From: Acetatifactor muris
GTDB lineage: Bacteria > Bacillota > Clostridia > Lachnospirales > Lachnospiraceae
Direction: 5' to 3'
DNA length: 32,721 nt
NCBI GenBank assembly: GCA_023664365.1
Contig: JAMPFR010000037.1
Span: 1 to 32,721, forward strand
Shown here piece by piece: positions 7,671 to 14,032 of this stretch; the first letter of the stretch is position 1; each line of letters opens with the position of its first letter. The translations under genes and the position numbers were made by a program. The notes beneath the pieces were generated by a model. It was not told the origin of the DNA. It did not search any database and was given only the letters and a program-made list of their open reading frames with translations.

Positions 7671-7823
7671 ATTTCATCCTTATTCGACGGTGCTGCTGTG
7701 CTTCTTTTTCCCTGAGATTACTGCTTATGCACCTAAAATTTTATCTTGTCTGCCAGCAGAATTAATTCTTATGATGACAGGAACTTCTTCTGTTTATCAC
7801 TATTTTATGTTAGCATATAATTT

Positions 7824-7871
7824 AAAAAAGAGAATGACGCTTTCGGAAATTATCATTTTCCAAAAACGTCA
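7824..7871 (-). terminator. rho-independent terminator (copy in repeat 1)
   Basis: Read leftward: a 15-bp stem starting TGACG and ending CGTCA with several G-U pairs, then TTCTCTTTTTT. It is the duplicate of the 9432-9479 terminator and now sits downstream of the 8036-8743 gene, which it probably terminates. Confidence 0.75.
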
Positions 7872-7876
7872 AAAAA

Positions 7877-7958
7877 TCAATACCACTCTCTTGATCGCCC
7901 CAACAACTTTTCATAGGACTCTTTAGCAACTTGAGCTGTCTGCTCTCTTCTGAACAAA
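7877..7958 (-). pseudogene. 3' fragment of a duplicated HTH regulator gene
   Basis: Encodes LFRREQTAQVAKESYEKL followed by LGRSREWY and a stop, identical in protein to the C-terminus of the 612-aa regulator at 9485-11323. The single DNA difference in the coding part is silent. Homology stops abruptly at 7958, so only the last 26 codons remain. Confidence 0.85.
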
Positions 7959-8035: not shown

Positions 8036-8743
8036 TCAGTCAAATGCGCTGGTTTTTGCTATTGTTTGAATTGTTTTTCCGCTGGTTGATGATTTAGAAC
8101 TGACAACTAAGGTAAATGAATATCCTGTTTGTCCTGCTGCAGTTGTATCCTTAAAGGAGGCTCCTTCAAAATCTCCGGATGTTACCGGAGTAACCCTTGC
8201 TGTACATATATAACTTCCGTCCCCTGTATAAGAACCGGATCTGCTGCCGGAAAGCGCCACTAATTCATTTTTTACACCAAGATGATCTATCCATGTTATG
8301 ACTGCATTTACCGTCACGCCATCCTTTGTCCAACTGCCGTCAGAATTTTTTTCTTCTGCGTTCACACTCAATACGCACAGGGCAGAGCGATTGTCATCAC
8401 CTGATAAGTTTAAAGCTGACTCATCCTGATATATTACCTTTGTTAAAGTAGCTTCCGCTTCGATAAAATGTACCGCACCGTCTTCATCATATTCATATGC
8501 TTCAATTTCAACGCCCTCATTTGAACGGCGGTCATTTGATAATGTTATTGTCTGAATATCAATAATATTGCTATATTGCTCAAACAGCAAATCAGGTTCT
8601 GTTTCTAATAGCCTGATTACGGATTCATTCGCCGTCTCCTGGCTAAATACTGCTCTTTCGTTTGCCTTTGCACTAAGGCATATAGAATTCATTACAAGTA
8701 CCATAGATAACACAGTTAATAAAATTTTTTCATTATTCTTCAC
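8036..8743 (-). CDS. secreted protein of unknown function, 235 aa
   Basis: The start is a GTG at 8743-8741, one base after the TAA of the upstream membrane-protein gene, so translation is probably coupled. A signal peptide of about 27 residues ends LSAKANE; no lipobox. The mature part is Ser/Thr/Gly-rich and mostly beta: a helical segment SVIRLLETEPDLLFEQYSNI, then VTVNAVITWIDHLGVKNELVALSGSRSGSYTGDGSYICTARV-type strands ending in a Ser-rich tail. No catalytic motif is visible. It could be a cell-surface or released effector made with its membrane partner. I do not recognise the family. Confidence 0.75.
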   Translation of the reverse strand: MKNNEKILLTVLSMVLVMNSICLSAKANERAVFSQETANESVIRLLETEPDLLFEQYSNIIDIQTITLSNDRRSNEGVEIEAYEYDEDGAVHFIEAEATLTKVIYQDESALNLSGDDNRSALCVLSVNAEEKNSDGSWTKDGVTVNAVITWIDHLGVKNELVALSGSRSGSYTGDGSYICTARVTPVTSGDFEGASFKDTTAAGQTGYSFTLVVSSKSSTSGKTIQTIAKTSAFD

Positions 8744-8744
8744 C

Positions 8745-9266
8745 TTACTCTTTCGTTAATATTTTAGTCTTAAGTCTGGCATATATAGGAAGCATCAAAA
8801 TAACAGCCATTATGCCATATAATACACCAATACCCGCATTTGCCATAAGTGGCATAAAAAACTCCGGTTGCTTCAACGATAGTGAGTGCAATAATCCAAT
8901 TGCCGTTACGATTGTTAATAATGTGCCCGTAAGAAATGCCGTTATCATCGATAACTTAATAGAAAAAGCCGCCTTTCTGACTTGGGCAACAGTTTCTCCG
9001 GAATCTTTTACGCAATATGCCAAGGCACACCCAAATTCCTTAAGCAGACCGGTTGCCGTCAAAATAACCAGAACCATGCATATTATCGGAAGCAGCATCA
9101 TTCCGTCACTGTACACTATTGGCTTTATACCCATACTTCTGATATATAAGCTCAAAAAAAGGCTGCACAATATAACAATTGCAATTTCTCCTGCAATAAG
9201 AGAAATAATCCAATATGCTCTTGGAAAATTTGCCTTATCCTTCTTTTTTGCTGCAATTTTTTGCAT
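8745..9266 (-). CDS. four-helix membrane protein, unknown function
   Basis: A 173-aa protein with hydrophobic segments near residues 19-44, 55-74, 104-127 and 139-163 and a Lys-rich N-terminus. The order (two helices, charged cytoplasmic loop KEFGCALAYCVKDSGETVAQVRK, then two helices with ANAGIGVLYGIMAVILMLPIYARLK) faintly resembles MotA/TolQ/ExbB proton-channel topology. The match is too weak to name it. AAGGAGAG lies upstream of the ATG. It is the first gene of a pair with the secreted protein; both lie between 190-bp direct repeats. Confidence 0.75.
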   Translation of the reverse strand: MQKIAAKKKDKANFPRAYWIISLIAGEIAIVILCSLFLSLYIRSMGIKPIVYSDGMMLLPIICMVLVILTATGLLKEFGCALAYCVKDSGETVAQVRKAAFSIKLSMITAFLTGTLLTIVTAIGLLHSLSLKQPEFFMPLMANAGIGVLYGIMAVILMLPIYARLKTKILTKE

Positions 9267-9376: not shown

Positions 9377-9566
9377 TTATGATGGCAAAAACTTCTTTTG
9401 CTTATCACTATTTTATGTTAGCATATAATTTAAAAAAAAGAATGACGCTTTCGGAAATTATCATTTTCCAAAAACGTCAAAAAATCAATACCACTCTCTT
9501 GATCGCCCCAACAACTTTTCATAGGACTCTTTAGCAACTTGAGCTGTCTGCTCTCTTCTAAACAAA
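9377..9566. repeat. 190-bp direct repeat, copy 2 (native 3' end of the regulator gene)
   Basis: The partner of 7769-7958, offset exactly 1608 bases. It comprises the last 82 bases of the regulator coding region and about 108 bases downstream, including the terminator. Confidence 0.93.
9432..9479 (-). terminator. rho-independent terminator of the double-HTH regulator
   Basis: Read leftward, six bases past the stop at 9485: TGACGTTTTTGGAAA pairs with TTTCCGAAAGCGTCA through G-U pairs over a loop of about 7 bases, then TTCTTTTTTTT. Confidence 0.85.
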
Positions 9567-11323
9567 TCAGCGCTGTAAAAGGCAAATTCATAATATTTCA
9601 GGCTTGTCTCCTCTTCCCCCAAATGCTCTAGGGCATCCGCTTTGCTGCTCAAAAATAATGGCAGTATTTTTCCTGTACCGCCGGCCCGGCACAAGCGAAT
9701 TCCATCCTCGGAATAGTCCAATTCCTCCTTCCACTTTTTCAATCTCCCTGCGCATTCCGCCAAACGTGCCATGAGCATTATTACTCCTTCGAAATGAAAT
9801 TCCTGTCTGACCTTACTGCTCTGATAATGCCTTAATAACTTCTTCAATAAATACTCTGCCTGCGCCTCCTTTTTCTCATTTATCAACGTATCTGCCATTT
9901 TGATCATTACACCGATTTCTTCCCTGCTGAAGGGACAGCTCCAAAAGTCCTCCGACCATTTCCTGACATCCACATTTTTCGGCACTTTCTTCAACGTGAT
10001 GGACAAAATTTTCCTGGCTCTTTCAAACTGCTGCTCCGGGGGAATTCTGTCTGACTCACAGTCTATGGTAAAATTCCTGATTTCCACATACTGACGATTG
10101 CAGTCATAAGATAAGTCCAGTTCCTCCTTCATTCTTTTCAGCGCGGCCTCTGCCTGTTCCCATTTTTTGTTCATAATCAACGTGGTTATCTGCCATTCCA
10201 GGTTAAACAGTGCAAAGTCATTCGCTTCAATGTTGTTGTAGTAATAATCCTCCCGCAAATCTAATTTTTTCGCCAGTGCCCGAAAAGTACCTGTATTGGG
10301 CGCCCGCCTGCCGGTCTCGATTCTGGAAAGAGTTTCCGGGGTACAGATCCCCGCGCTGAGTTCTTCCTGAGAATAACCGCGATACCGCCTGTTTCTGCTG
10401 AGCAACTCGCCCAGCAGGTCGGCATCCTGCCATGTGTCCGTCATATATAGTTCGTCATCGAATTTTTCTCCCGTCTGCCCCAATTCCTGCATCAGCTCTT
10501 GCCACGCGTTCAGCTGCATTTTCTCATTATGTACCTGTTTCTCCATTCCCAGACATTCCGCTGTCTTCACATAACTGTCTAAAACTGCTTCCATGCCGGG
10601 GATATAACCAAAGGTTACTATCATATTCATGGCTTTTTCTGCCATGGCCATGCATTCATGATACATGCCCTGTTCATAGAGTATGGGTAGGTACCGGGCT
10701 GCCACCCTGGGGTATAGTTTTACTTTCTCCCGCTCTTGCGAGAAGCGGGCAGGAATATAACCCTCCAGAAAAAGCAACACCTTTGCTGCATCCTCCCGGT
10801 TCCGGCAGGAATCACTCCAGAGCAGCATAATATTAATTTCCTGTATACTCAAATAAGTATGTGCGCCCAACTGTCTTGGGAAATCCGGCACTGTCCTTTG
10901 AACAGCCTCCTGATACAGTTCGGCCGCGTCACCTTTATCTCCGGACAATTCCGCCTTCGCCCTCACCTGTATCACACTAAAAAACTGCTCCTGAATTGCC
11001 GGATTACAGACAGGCTTCCGGCCTGCCTCTTCCCTCAGCAGCGCCATCACCTTTTGCCAATCCCGATCTATCTGTGCCACGGAAAGCTGTTGTCTCCAGT
11101 CAAAATAAGTATATTCTCTCTTCGTCAGCAGGGCGGCAAAGATGTCCGAAGAAAATCCCAGCCGCTGCAACAGCGCCGTCAGCAGCAGTCTGTCCATCCT
11201 GCGCTCTCCTTTCAGGTATTTTGTCAGCGCCGAGGGTGAACATAGGCCTTTGCACAGATCAATCCTGCTTATGTTCCTGTTTATAATTGCTTCCTGAAGT
11301 ATCTCCCCCATGGTCTTTTTCAC
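9485..11323 (-). CDS. transcriptional regulator with two XRE-type HTH domains and TPR-like repeats
   Basis: A 612-aa cytoplasmic protein. HTH 1 spans residues about 5-60 (ISRIDLCKGLCSPSALTKYLKGERR). HTH 2 spans about 303-358 (YSQEELSAGICTPETLSRIETGRRAPN, a canonical XRE helix-turn-helix). Each HTH is followed by 250 or so residues of paired helices of TPR type, for example ISLEYLAV-free helical stretches such as WEQAEAALKRMKEEL and AEYLLKKLLRHYQSS. The layout HTH-TPR-HTH-TPR suggests an internal duplication of an RRNPP-like (peptide-responsive) regulator. That is inference; no pheromone ORF is evident next to it. Start is GTG 11323 with GGGTGAT upstream; the ATG four codons in has no ribosome site. 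The imperfect palindrome at 11347-11365 is a candidate autoregulatory site. Confidence 0.88.
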   Translation of the reverse strand: MKKTMGEILQEAIINRNISRIDLCKGLCSPSALTKYLKGERRMDRLLLTALLQRLGFSSDIFAALLTKREYTYFDWRQQLSVAQIDRDWQKVMALLREEAGRKPVCNPAIQEQFFSVIQVRAKAELSGDKGDAAELYQEAVQRTVPDFPRQLGAHTYLSIQEINIMLLWSDSCRNREDAAKVLLFLEGYIPARFSQEREKVKLYPRVAARYLPILYEQGMYHECMAMAEKAMNMIVTFGYIPGMEAVLDSYVKTAECLGMEKQVHNEKMQLNAWQELMQELGQTGEKFDDELYMTDTWQDADLLGELLSRNRRYRGYSQEELSAGICTPETLSRIETGRRAPNTGTFRALAKKLDLREDYYYNNIEANDFALFNLEWQITTLIMNKKWEQAEAALKRMKEELDLSYDCNRQYVEIRNFTIDCESDRIPPEQQFERARKILSITLKKVPKNVDVRKWSEDFWSCPFSREEIGVMIKMADTLINEKKEAQAEYLLKKLLRHYQSSKVRQEFHFEGVIMLMARLAECAGRLKKWKEELDYSEDGIRLCRAGGTGKILPLFLSSKADALEHLGEEETSLKYYEFAFYSADLFRREQTAQVAKESYEKLLGRSREWY

Positions 11324-11478: not shown

Positions 11479-11546
11479 TTCACATTGTCAGGGTCGGTGC
11501 TGCCGCGTCTTGTATGGTGGTATTGAATCCGGCACGATTTTAACAT

Positions 11547-11628
11547 GGATGGGTTCCCGAGTGGCCAAAGGGGACAGACTGTAAATCTGCTGCAAATTGC
11601 TTCGGTGGTTCGAATCCACCCCCATCCA
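11547..11628 (+). tRNA. tRNA-Tyr (anticodon GTA)
   Basis: Acceptor arms GGATGGG and CCCATCC pair fully. The anticodon loop CTGTAAA has GTA at 11581-11583, a long class-II variable arm is present, and the T arm is GGTGG-TTCGAAT-CCACC. The outermost anticodon-stem pair is A-C mismatched. CCA is not encoded directly after discriminator A11628. Confidence 0.95.
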
Positions 11629-11693
11629 TGCCATATGCGGGCAATGCTTTATCATGGCAGGAGCCGTTGATGAAGCCTAGGCGCATGTGCCCT

Positions 11694-11777
11694 GCTGGTA
11701 TGGTGGAATAGGCAGACACAAGAGACTTAAAATCTCTCGGGGGCAACTCCGTGCCGGTTCAAGTCCGGCTACCAGCA
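11694..11777 (+). tRNA. tRNA-Leu (anticodon TAA)
   Basis: Acceptor GCTGGTA pairs with TACCAGC. Anticodon loop CTTAAAA has TAA at 11728-11730, the long variable arm is CTCGGGGGCAACTCCGT-like, and the T arm is GCCGG-TTCAAGT-CCGGC. CCA is not encoded. The segment from the anticodon stem to 8 bases beyond the gene is repeated exactly at 13519-13581, marking this gene as an integration target. Confidence 0.96.
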
Positions 11778-11785
11778 TTATTTTA
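11723..11785 (+). repeat. att-like 63-bp direct repeat, left copy (inside tRNA-Leu)
   Basis: Identical over 63 bases to 13519-13581. It runs from the anticodon stem of tRNA-Leu to 8 bases past the 3' end, the usual footprint of a tyrosine-integrase attachment site. Confidence 0.93.
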
Positions 11786-11788
11786 GTG

Positions 11789-11832
11789 GAGTCCATATTT
11801 TCAGTTGATAGCTGAGATGGATTCTTTTTTTT
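11789..11832 (+). terminator. terminator of the tRNA operon, inside the island
   Basis: GAGTCCAT pairs with ATGGATTC, with an inner TCAG/CTGA stem, followed by eight T (11825-11832). Because it lies past the left att copy, the tRNA-Leu gene now uses a terminator brought by the element. Confidence 0.8.
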
Positions 11833-11853
11833 CGCCAATACCATTTTTTCCCG

Positions 11854-11882
11854 TTGACAACATTTCGATTTTTGGATACACT
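11854..11882 (+). promoter_or_regulatory. promoter of the toxin-antitoxin pair
   Basis: TTGACA (11854-11859), 17-base spacer, TACACT (11877-11882). It is 46 bases before the preferred ATG at 11928. Confidence 0.6.
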
Positions 11883-11927
11883 AACAATAAGTAAATGGTT
11901 AATTTACAAGTCGAAAGCGGTGGCGTA

Positions 11928-12554
11928 ATGTTGCATGAATATCTGAAAGAAAACTATAAACCGGGGGAGCCGATCTTTGCAGGGGATATTGTCATTTCCG
12001 GATTATCGGAAGAAAATCTTCGTTATCATCTAAAGAAACTTACTGATGATGGTCTTTTATGCCGGTTTGAGGCGGGGATATATTATTTTCCCAAAACGGA
12101 TATTTTTGGAGAAAAGGCTGCTTTAACGGCGGATACGGTTGCCTTTCACAAGTATGTCAAACGCAGGGGAAAACAGGTGGGATACTATTCAGGATATACT
12201 CTGGCAAACCGTATGGGACTATCTACACAGATGCCGTTCATAGAGGAAATCACCAGTAATTTTGCACCGGCACCGGTTCGGGAGCTGACAATAAAAAACC
12301 AAAGGTACATTTTAAGGCGGCCGGTGGTGGAGGTTACGGATGAAAATGTGGCAGTTTTGCAGTTCCTGGACTGTCTGAAGGACTTGGAGAAGTGTGCGGA
12401 GGAGGAGCCGGAGGTCTGTGGGAGGATTCTTACTGCTTATGCAAGAGAGCATACTCTTACAAAGGCAGTGGTAGACAGATTCCTTGTAAATTATCCGTTG
12501 AAAATATACAAGACGATATATGAGACGGAGGTGGATTTTGGAAGTTCCTTTTAA
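11928..12554 (+). CDS. AbiEi-like antitoxin (DUF6088-type winged helix)
   Basis: A 208-aa protein with an N-terminal winged helix (LHEYLKENYKPGEPIFAGDI, then LSEENLRYHLKKLTDDGLLCRFEAGIYYFPK), as in AbiEi/DUF6088 antitoxins that bind their own promoter. The middle YYSGYTLANRMGLSTQMPF and RYILRRP match the family style. The open frame begins at 11895, but that ATG has no ribosome site; the ATG at 11928 follows GGTGG. In known type IV systems the antitoxin represses the operon and counteracts the nucleotidyltransferase without stable binding. It sits 45 bases before the toxin-like gene, both inside the tRNA-Leu island. Confidence 0.82.
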   Translation: MLHEYLKENYKPGEPIFAGDIVISGLSEENLRYHLKKLTDDGLLCRFEAGIYYFPKTDIFGEKAALTADTVAFHKYVKRRGKQVGYYSGYTLANRMGLSTQMPFIEEITSNFAPAPVRELTIKNQRYILRRPVVEVTDENVAVLQFLDCLKDLEKCAEEEPEVCGRILTAYAREHTLTKAVVDRFLVNYPLKIYKTIYETEVDFGSSF

Positions 12555-12599
12555 ATTATTGATTAGTACGTATATTGAGGCACGCAGAGGGGTGTAAGT

Positions 12600-13514
12600 A
12601 TGTATCTGCATGAGGACAGGGAAGCATTTCAGGATATAATTGAACAGACCGCTGATAACTGCGGAAGGACGCTGGCAGTGGTGGAAAAAGATTATTATGT
12701 GACGCTGATACTGAAGCTGCTCGCAGAGCAGCTTGAAAACTGTGTTTTCAAAGGAGGAACATCCCTGTCAAAAGGTTTCCGTGTAATAGATAGGTTTTCC
12801 GAAGATATTGATATTACCTTTAATGAACATATTGGAGAGAGCAGAAGGAAGAAACTAAAGAATGCCGTTTTGAAAGGTATTAGCGAGGAACTGGAGATGC
12901 CAATTGCAAACTGGCAGGAAATCCAGAGTGACAGGGATTATAATGTCTATTTGTTTTCCTATGAATCGGTATCTGCTTTTCAGGATGATAGATTACCACA
13001 GTATGTAAAGCTGGAAACGGCTCTGGGCTCCTATTCTTTCCCTACGCAGAGCGTTGAGATCCGCAATTATATCGGGGACTATCTGGAAGGAAGAGGGAGA
13101 ACGGACCTGGCAGAGCAGTTTTTTCTGGGTAAGTTTTCCATGAATTTACAGTCCTTGGAGCGAACTTATATAGATAAAGTCTTTGCCCTATGTGACTATT
13201 ATCTTCAGGGAAGGTCGAAGCGCTATTCACGTCATTTGTATGACATTTACAAGCTGACACCTCTGATAAAATTTGATAATGAATTTGCTGCATTGGTAAG
13301 AGAGGTGAGGAAGCATCGTTCCAAAATGAAGGTATGCCTGTCAGCGAAAGATGAAATTGATGTGCCGAAGGTCATTTTGGAGTTTTGTGATAATTCTTTT
13401 TACAGGGAGGATTATCAGGCTGTTACAAGTTATTTTGCAGCCGATGAGGTGCCTTATGATGATGTAATCGGGCAGATGCGGGTACTTGCCGCCGATAATT
13501 TGTTTGTAAAGTAG
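12600..13514 (+). CDS. AbiEii-like nucleotidyltransferase toxin
   Basis: A 304-aa protein of the nucleotidyltransferase AbiEii/AbiGii family. Diagnostic motifs are EKDYYV (residues 29-34), KGGTSLSKG (51-59) and SEDIDITF (67-74) with the metal-binding D69 and D71, then the helical ERTYIDKVFALCDYYLQG and RHLYDIYKL blocks. All expected active-site residues are present, so it should be functional. Known relatives block growth by adding nucleotides to tRNA or other RNA and can abort phage infection; the target here is unknown. AGAGGGG lies upstream of the ATG. The stop is five bases before the right att-like repeat. Confidence 0.9.
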   Translation: MYLHEDREAFQDIIEQTADNCGRTLAVVEKDYYVTLILKLLAEQLENCVFKGGTSLSKGFRVIDRFSEDIDITFNEHIGESRRKKLKNAVLKGISEELEMPIANWQEIQSDRDYNVYLFSYESVSAFQDDRLPQYVKLETALGSYSFPTQSVEIRNYIGDYLEGRGRTDLAEQFFLGKFSMNLQSLERTYIDKVFALCDYYLQGRSKRYSRHLYDIYKLTPLIKFDNEFAALVREVRKHRSKMKVCLSAKDEIDVPKVILEFCDNSFYREDYQAVTSYFAADEVPYDDVIGQMRVLAADNLFVK

Positions 13515-13518
13515 TACA

Positions 13519-13581
13519 AGACTTAAAATCTCTCGGGGGCAACTCCGTGCCGGTTCAAGTCCGGCTACCAGCATTATTTTA
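13519..13581 (+). repeat. att-like 63-bp direct repeat, right copy (displaced tRNA-Leu 3' half)
   Basis: Exact copy of 11723-11785 without the 5' half of the tRNA, so it cannot make a tRNA. The last codons and the stop (13574-13576) of the converging GNAT gene lie inside it. Confidence 0.93.
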
Positions 13582-14032
13582 ATGGAAGCTTCATCTCAAT
13601 CTCCCCATCATTGACGATTCTTCCGGTTGGCAGGAAGCCCAACTTTTCATAGACATGCTTTGCGATTTTGTTATCCGGTACATAGTCCAGGATAATAAAG
13701 TCGTATTTGCCGGAGTCCTTTGCCAGTTGAATCATCTGCTGTATGGCTGAAGTGCCGTATCCCTTGCCCTGATGCTCTTCAGGAAATAGGATCCGCCACA
13801 GTACCAGGCACCGATCGTCACTGTCCTCATCCAGCATCATAAAACCCACAGGCTCTTCCCCATGATAGACAGCAAAAGGATAAACATCGCCCGCTTCCCT
13901 GTAAAGCCATGCCTGCGCCAGGGAATAGGCGTTTGAGGCTACAAAATTTTCCCCCTCCGGGCGTTTCATCTGCATAATTGCCATAAAATTTTCTTCAGTG
14001 ATCCTCTGAAAATGAACATCCGTATCTTCCAT
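13574..14032 (-). CDS. GNAT family N-acetyltransferase
   Basis: A 152-aa single-domain GNAT enzyme using acetyl-CoA. The signature is WRILFPEEHQGKGYGTSAIQ, with the Q-G-K-G-Y-G pyrophosphate-binding loop near residues 88-93, then ILDYVPDNKIAKHVYEKLGF typical of the C-terminal half. The N-terminus (ITEENFMAIMQMKR, YPFAVYHGEEPVGFMML) recalls Blt/PaiA-like polyamine acetyltransferases, but the substrate is not certain. GAGGA lies 10 bases upstream of the ATG. It is probably the third gene of a leftward unit (GH27, zinc ribbon, GNAT; 18-base gap). Its last residues are encoded by displaced tRNA-Leu sequence. Confidence 0.9.
   Translation of the reverse strand: MEDTDVHFQRITEENFMAIMQMKRPEGENFVASNAYSLAQAWLYREAGDVYPFAVYHGEEPVGFMMLDEDSDDRCLVLWRILFPEEHQGKGYGTSAIQQMIQLAKDSGKYDFIILDYVPDNKIAKHVYEKLGFLPTGRIVNDGEIEMKLPLK

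Follow-up and report, generated by a model that had tools for sequence, protein, structure and literature searches.

A probable remnant of a tRNA-Leu(UAA) island reduced to an AbiE operon in Acetatifactor muris

Introduction

How did an AbiE toxin–antitoxin (TA) operon come to lie between an intact tRNA-Leu gene and a second copy of that gene's 3′ half? The question is raised by a stretch of 32,721 nucleotides from Acetatifactor muris (contig JAMPFR010000037.1 of assembly GCA_023664365.1), which is called the window throughout. The features of the locus are listed in Table 1. They are considered below together with the same site in relatives, the location of AbiE elsewhere and the explanations that compete for the origin of the segment.

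Table 1. Features of the tRNA-Leu(UAA) locus in window coordinates
Feature	Position	Strand	Basis or remark
tRNA-Tyr(GTA)	11546..11629	+	ARAGORN; lies upstream of the target gene
tRNA-Leu(TAA), intact, target gene	11693..11778	+	ARAGORN; Rfam RF00005, 57.6 bits
attL core, repeat copy 1 (68 bp)	11723..11790	+	3′ half of tRNA-Leu
Anticodon loop of tRNA-Leu	11726-11732		by inspection
Hairpin followed by T8, probable tRNA-Leu terminator	11788..11825	+	fold -15.8 kcal/mol, z -3.99
Integrase relic: final ~13 codons with stop, from an antisense tyrosine-integrase gene	11801..11842	-	profile and pairwise similarity
AbiE promoter, TTGACA-17-TACACT	11854..11882	+	promoter scan; similar boxes in homologues
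Inverted repeat GTAAAT-N5-ATTTAC, candidate AbiEi operator	11891..11907	+	by eye
abiEi, antitoxin/repressor	11928..12554	+	208 aa; a 219-aa ORF opens at 11895
abiEii, nucleotidyltransferase toxin	12600..13514	+	304 aa
attR core, repeat copy 2	13519..13586	+	4 bp past the abiEii stop
GNAT acetyltransferase gene, chromosomal neighbour	13574..14032	-	stop inside the repeat

Results and Discussion

A direct repeat of the 3′ half of tRNA-Leu

A repeat search of the window reveals two direct copies that are identical at 67 of 68 positions and are spaced 1796 bp apart. The first 63 bp are perfect, with 11723-11785 equal to 13519-13581. The first-pass annotation had described the perfect part at this spacing and had assigned its first copy to the 3′ half of tRNA-Leu(TAA); the repeat was found again, and ARAGORN and Rfam both support the assignment. 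The repeat starts 3 nt before the anticodon loop and overruns the 3′ end of the tRNA by 8 bp (12/13 when extended). Simple arithmetic places a perfect repeat of 63 bp far beyond chance for a sequence of 32.7 kb. Across the 174 contigs of the window genome, the repeat is present at these two places only, and the next match, on contig C92, is at 77%. The displaced fragment has the same orientation as tRNA-Leu. ARAGORN calls no tRNA at the second copy, in agreement with Rfam.

The second copy provides the last codons and the stop of the convergent GNAT gene, which adjoins the site also in genomes G070, G036 and, as debris, G077. tRNA-Tyr lies within 600 nt of tRNA-Leu(UAA) in 60 of the 69 genus loci checked.

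The window contains another direct repeat, of 190 nt at 96% identity with a spacing of 1608 (7769-7958 and 9377-9566). It spans the 3′ end of an HTH gene (9485-11323, minus strand) and flanks two ORFs (8036-8743 and 8745-9266, both on the minus strand) that have no Pfam match above cut-off. Elsewhere in the window, at 877-1869, a lipoprotein-like ORF encodes a short tandem array of SAPIDP close to its N-terminus.

The AbiE operon

The only ORFs of at least 200 aa between the repeat copies are the AbiE pair, and no transfer genes are among them. An AbiEi/AbiEii-like pair had been proposed here at first reading, and profile searches uphold it. AbiEi matches the PADLOC AbiEi model (1.1e-77) and Pfam DUF6088 (1.7e-07), and AbiEii matches Pfam PF08843 (6.8e-30) and the PADLOC AbiEii model (1.1e-83). 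The antitoxin gene lies upstream of the toxin gene with a gap of 45 nt, and the two are presumably co-transcribed. The AbiEi start at 11928 appears better placed than that at 11895, because it agrees with a by-eye comparison of homologues and because 11895 falls inside the inverted repeat. The arms of this repeat are alike by eye in three of seven homologues (G013, G026 and G173).

The nucleotidyltransferase (NTase) motif, composed of G52, G53, D69, I70 and D71, is invariant in the window protein and six aligned homologues. The residue before the glycines is a lysine, whereas the published consensus has a hydrophobic residue at this position (PMC3985639). Of 12 comparisons of the AbiE genes, 11 have a usable dS, and the dN/dS ratio is 0.04-0.10 in these; AbiEii of G173 yields no usable dS, and the value for AbiEi of G059 derives from 123 codons. 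This purifying signal was rejected as proof of selection at the present site, as it is a between-species signal and mostly older than this insertion.

The AbiE family is described as combining autorepression, a GTP-binding NTase toxin, phage resistance and the stabilisation of mobile elements (PMC3985639). In Streptococcus suis, AbiEi is reported to bind oriT and restrain excision of an ICE, and AbiE stabilises ICESsuHN105 (PMC11062541). The window operon resembles the type IV TA systems presented in these two sources in its bicistronic AbiEi-AbiEii order, its NTase motif residues and its promoter inverted repeat. It differs from them and from ICESsuHN105 in that its AbiEi matches Pfam DUF6088, in that it sits on what is probably a remnant rather than on an active ICE, and in that it is known from sequence alone. 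By analogy, the pair probably defends against phages. AbiEi would repress the operon and neutralise AbiEii, and the NTase activity of AbiEii would stop growth upon phage infection or loss of the locus. AbiE may also stabilise integrated elements, as in the analogous systems.

An integrase tail behind the tRNA

The DNA between the repeat copies had been read in the first-pass annotation as a tRNA terminator, a promoter and the AbiE pair, with no trace of an integrase. The three components are present, but the terminator DNA is at the same time the 3′ tail of an integrase gene, and the absence of any trace does not hold. The tail is antisense and about 40-80 bp long; no integrase gene is found between the repeat copies apart from it. 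The integrase-like similarity at the DNA level (11781-11859) is wider than the relic itself, which overlaps the hairpin. The hairpin is absent from the output of a simple terminator scan.

The tail was scored with an HMM built from six integrase tails, the window being excluded from them. The HMM matches the window with 14.1 bits (E 2.3e-4), compared with 6.4 bits for the best of 300 mononucleotide shuffles and 2.0 bits for the best of 196 control segments. In pairwise comparison, the window tail is identical to the integrase stub of G036 at 63 of 79 positions and to the integrase end of G063 at 55 of 75, and 0 of 1000 mononucleotide shuffles are as good in either case, although the similarity takes in the terminator, which could inflate the match. 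The G063 integrase ends in GKEKESTSAAN*, and the window encodes GEKKESISAIN* at the same place. An initial reading of 11787-11840 as native chromosomal sequence was dropped after integrase tails were found in relatives.

At E<1e-3, the HMM also matches 18 of 63 other tRNA-Leu loci, all 18 of which score above the window. We infer from these loci that such scars may be kept behind tRNA-Leu because the tRNA needs a terminator. At L045, L113, L051, L139, L123, L094, L081 and other loci, tail-like sequence lies behind tRNA-Leu and no integrase match adjoins it.

Integrases and decayed islands at tRNA-Leu(UAA)

At E<=1e-40, the tail-integrase family is present in 4 of 138 genomes (G003, G151, G063 and G026). 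The first three are close, full-length relatives of the lost integrase and lie directly behind tRNA-Leu(UAA) in antisense orientation, with the CDS ending 27-30 nt from the tRNA, which agrees with the earlier suggestion that the tRNA 3′ end serves as an att site. The G003 integrase is full length, with 468 aa and a match to Pfam PF00589 (3.3e-27). The integrase of G026 is at 35%, and the 14 kb examined with it contains no tRNA-Leu.

Complete islands with an integrase sharing the repeat had also been envisaged. The integrases of G003, G151 and G063 do occupy the same tRNA, but an attR was found for none of these elements. In G003, whose assembly is 85% complete, the 3′ half of tRNA-Leu is present once, and another 18 kb of its contig contains no copy. 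In G151, the only candidates are an 80% match on C37 and two pieces, of 24 and 27 bp, on contig C38, where the flanking DNA resembles that of a different tRNA-Leu. No second copy occurs in G063 before the contig ends 2.3 kb on.

Use of the site was surveyed across hand-picked genus loci. ARAGORN calls a tRNA-Leu(TAA) at 70 of them; L129 was left out because a contig end truncates it, leaving 69, and no tRNA is called at the candidate locus L135 of G010. The sequence downstream of the 69 loci has a median length of 12.1 kb and reaches at least 5 kb in 54 of them; larger islands would therefore be missed. A second same-strand piece of the tRNA's own 3′ half is found downstream at 7 of the 69 loci. 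It measures 54 bp in G189 and 20-32 bp in G030, G175, G155, G152, G057 and G058. The shorter cores span the 3′ end of the tRNA only, and an integrase match stands beside the tRNA in four of the six genomes. Extra downstream pieces of G163, G026 and G053 contain no second copy. A long block starting from the anticodon is present in the window, in G189 and, in degenerate form, in G036.

The first-pass annotation had offered a larger island collapsed to its addiction or defence module as one possible origin, and decayed islands at tRNA-Leu in G036 and G189 lend weight to it. In G036, contig C22 carries tRNA-Tyr, tRNA-Leu and the integrase tail, and contig C58 carries an att relic that matches at 40/43 in its best stretch and is degenerate elsewhere, together with a LigT/2H-like gene and GNAT. 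We take the two contigs as neighbours within a decayed island of ~9.8 kb, because their ends overlap by 14 nt and a permease frame runs on across the overlap. The cargo identified by Pfam consists of FtsX/MacB permeases, an ABC ATPase and an APH-family gene, and we read a further two genes as a two-component pair. The decayed island of G189, 2.4 kb in size, lies at tRNA-Leu(UAA) and contains an integrase relic and a 592-aa protein without a Pfam match. Its tRNA fragments of 54 and 45 bp start at the same tRNA base as the window repeat, within one nucleotide. These two degenerate 3′ fragments are arranged in tandem (L082, 9803-9907), as though tRNA-Leu had formerly carried two elements in a row.

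Origin of the segment

The segment is probably a CIME-like remnant, formed when a tRNA-Leu island collapsed by deletion and kept AbiE. This reading builds on the repeat and the integrase tail, on the decayed islands and full-length integrases at tRNA-Leu(UAA) in relatives, and on the apparently empty site of G070 described below. An element whose tyrosine integrase recombines within the anticodon part of tRNA-Leu(UAA) would have inserted between tRNA-Leu and GNAT, restoring the tRNA at attL and displacing the old 3′ half to attR. Deletion would then have removed the integrase gene along with almost all other content. The last integrase codons would remain, doubling as the tRNA terminator, and the self-contained AbiE cassette of promoter, AbiEi and AbiEii would survive. 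The order of these events is our reconstruction, and the deletion may have taken one step or several. The CIME class is assigned from the att copies and the gene loss, the transfer genes of the parent element not being seen. Excision of the remnant is predicted to be possible through homologous recombination or through a related integrase provided in trans or by cis-accretion, and would restore a functional tRNA-Leu.

The segment would thus represent an end point of island decay, at which a TA/defence operon is left, along with an att copy on either side and an integrase tail sharing its DNA with the tRNA terminator. Island remnants of this kind are already known, and the locus is a further case. 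The lack of an attR for the elements with full-length integrases speaks against collapse, and so does the 8-bp extension of the repeat past the tRNA end, which exceeds what restoration of the tRNA needs. Shared ancestry of the element arm and the chromosomal flank of the lineage is one account of the extension. The DNA to the right of attR has no match in G063, the score being reached by 679 of 1000 shuffles, and gives a weak signal against G036, reached by 44 of 1000.

AbiE at other sites and the possibility of a minimal satellite

Alternatively, the 1.8-kb unit of att core, terminator and AbiE could itself be mobile, a minimal satellite moved in trans by the tRNA-Leu integrases of full elements, as the first-pass annotation had also suggested. 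It would then be a live mini-element crossing cells and inserted by integrases of unrelated full elements, with AbiE as both its sole cargo and its own addiction module, and would rank among the smallest integrase-less elements at tRNA sites. A pristine attR beside an already lost integrase favours such a unit, as do ends that fit tightly on the AbiE cassette. The abiEii stop almost abuts the core, and at the other end the DNA becomes homologous at 11837-11845 in 17 of the 20 closest loci in genome_contigs (L207-L222, L228, L232, L234 and L258). The homology ends at 13505-13518 in 18 of the 20, one of the other two being cut by a contig end. As these shared ends indicate, AbiE travels as a promoter-to-stop cassette of ~1.67 kb.

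A further point in favour of the satellite comes from G077, in which the tail behind tRNA-Leu is followed by a 35-bp AbiEi piece, an AbiEii piece of ~100 bp, GNAT debris (36/47 and 17/20) and sequence corresponding to the window from 20438 onward. The closest sequences to the AbiEii piece are those of G059 (89/100) and G179 (85/100), with the window further off (79/104), which suggests two arrivals; AbiE of G077 is likely to have arrived independently, although the piece compared is short.

The wider distribution of AbiE nevertheless makes a mobile unit unlikely. AbiEii matches occur at 26 places in 21 of 138 genus genomes, and tRNA-Leu(UAA) lies in the ~1.5-kb flanks of only two of these places, the window and the debris of G077. 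Longer flanks likewise place none of seven AbiE relatives with 73-85% identity at tRNA-Leu. In genome_contigs, 92 stretches encode AbiEii relatives, and none of the best 80 of these 92 has tRNA-Leu(UAA) in the examined sequence. IMG/VR contains no exact match to a 46-letter pattern of the repeat, and the window genome has no integrase of the tail family at the strict limit of E<=1e-40.

Any tRNA is present at nine of the same 80 genome_contigs loci, one being tRNA-Leu(CAA). A link between the toxin's RNA substrate and its location at a tRNA, raised at first reading, finds no support in these counts. Some AbiE carriers share long flanks with one another, and the neighbours of AbiE in G053 look like housekeeping genes. 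Carriage of the segment by plasmids was rejected, the single plasmid match covering 4% of the query. Carriage by phages was likewise rejected, since 19 of the 20 matches listed, from 28 phage-collection records, cover 3-7% of the query. IMG/VR holds one AbiEii relative, at 43%. A 7.9-kb faecal scaffold labelled as bacteriophage (MT837052.1; L041, 6229-7736) has an AbiE-like stretch that covers 68% of the query at 67.8%; it was deposited without annotation and may be bacterial in origin.

Age of the insertion

The age of the insertion can be gauged by comparison with G070, the nearest relative by GNAT (95% at the DNA level). The dS of GNAT between the window and G070 is 0.163, which predicts about five changes in 63 neutral bp if attR had been in place since the two lineages split. 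None is seen (P about 0.006), so the duplication is either young or homogenised. Gene conversion between the copies could also keep the repeat identical.

The first-pass annotation had proposed a comparison with related genomes for empty sites, and G070, where the tRNA 3′ half adjoins GNAT directly, apparently has one. Contig C48 of this genome starts inside the tRNA with AAG, as in the tRNA itself, where the attR of the window has ACA. The contig continues with the repeat, bearing one change, and GNAT, and it matches the window, apart from local gaps (for example, at about 15.4-16.9 kb), as far as the window's right end. The identification of an empty site rests on these three diagnostic bases left of the repeat and on synteny at a contig edge. 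Contig C4 of G070 was considered as the left flank and set aside, as its homologue (78%) of the HTH gene has no neighbouring tRNA.

A different view of the age is that an old island remnant became fixed in the lineage and that attR looks fresh through short gene conversion with tRNA-Leu. The arrangement of tRNA-Leu and tail is indeed common, as the 18 HMM matches indicate, and the AbiE and GNAT debris of G077 shows that the layout can be old. However, the att relic of G036 has decayed, the AbiE piece of G077 is not nearest to that of the window, and G070 (86% complete genome) has no AbiEii match at E<=1e-3. We give an old remnant a slim chance, slightly below that of a satellite. Very improbable is a duplication of the 3′ half by a non-mobile event such as slippage or break repair with separate arrival of AbiE. 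It would suit an identity that runs past the tRNA end. Against it, the integrase tail lies and is oriented as expected, and the fragments in the decayed islands at tRNA-Leu begin at almost the same tRNA position.

Relation to known systems

Among the matches listed from the open-licence literature, no paper deals with this locus or with an AbiE-only remnant at a tRNA. Under the CIME definition given in PMC5704250, which there cites Pavlovic 2004, a decayed site-specific element keeps attL and attR and has lost its integration and transfer genes, and the probable collapsed island of the window is alike in these respects. It differs in being cut to a single TA operon, in having an integrase tail at the tRNA terminator and in being assigned without a view of an ICE or IME parent.

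Anticodon-centred att sites are treated as a recognised class of tRNA islands in the description of Islander (PMC4383910). The window shares with these islands a tRNA restored at one end, a displaced 3′ fragment at the other and a block that runs from the anticodon. Islander as described there requires an integrase gene inside the island, whereas the window has none between the tRNA and the fragment.

In the account of E. coli defence hotspots in PMC10121019, 18 of 41 hotspots are at tRNA loci and AbiEii is found at three hotspots. The hotspot islands of unclear mobility reported there resemble the segment in carrying defence genes without a full mobility set. They typically keep an integrase or recombinase gene, whereas the window retains only the integrase tail.
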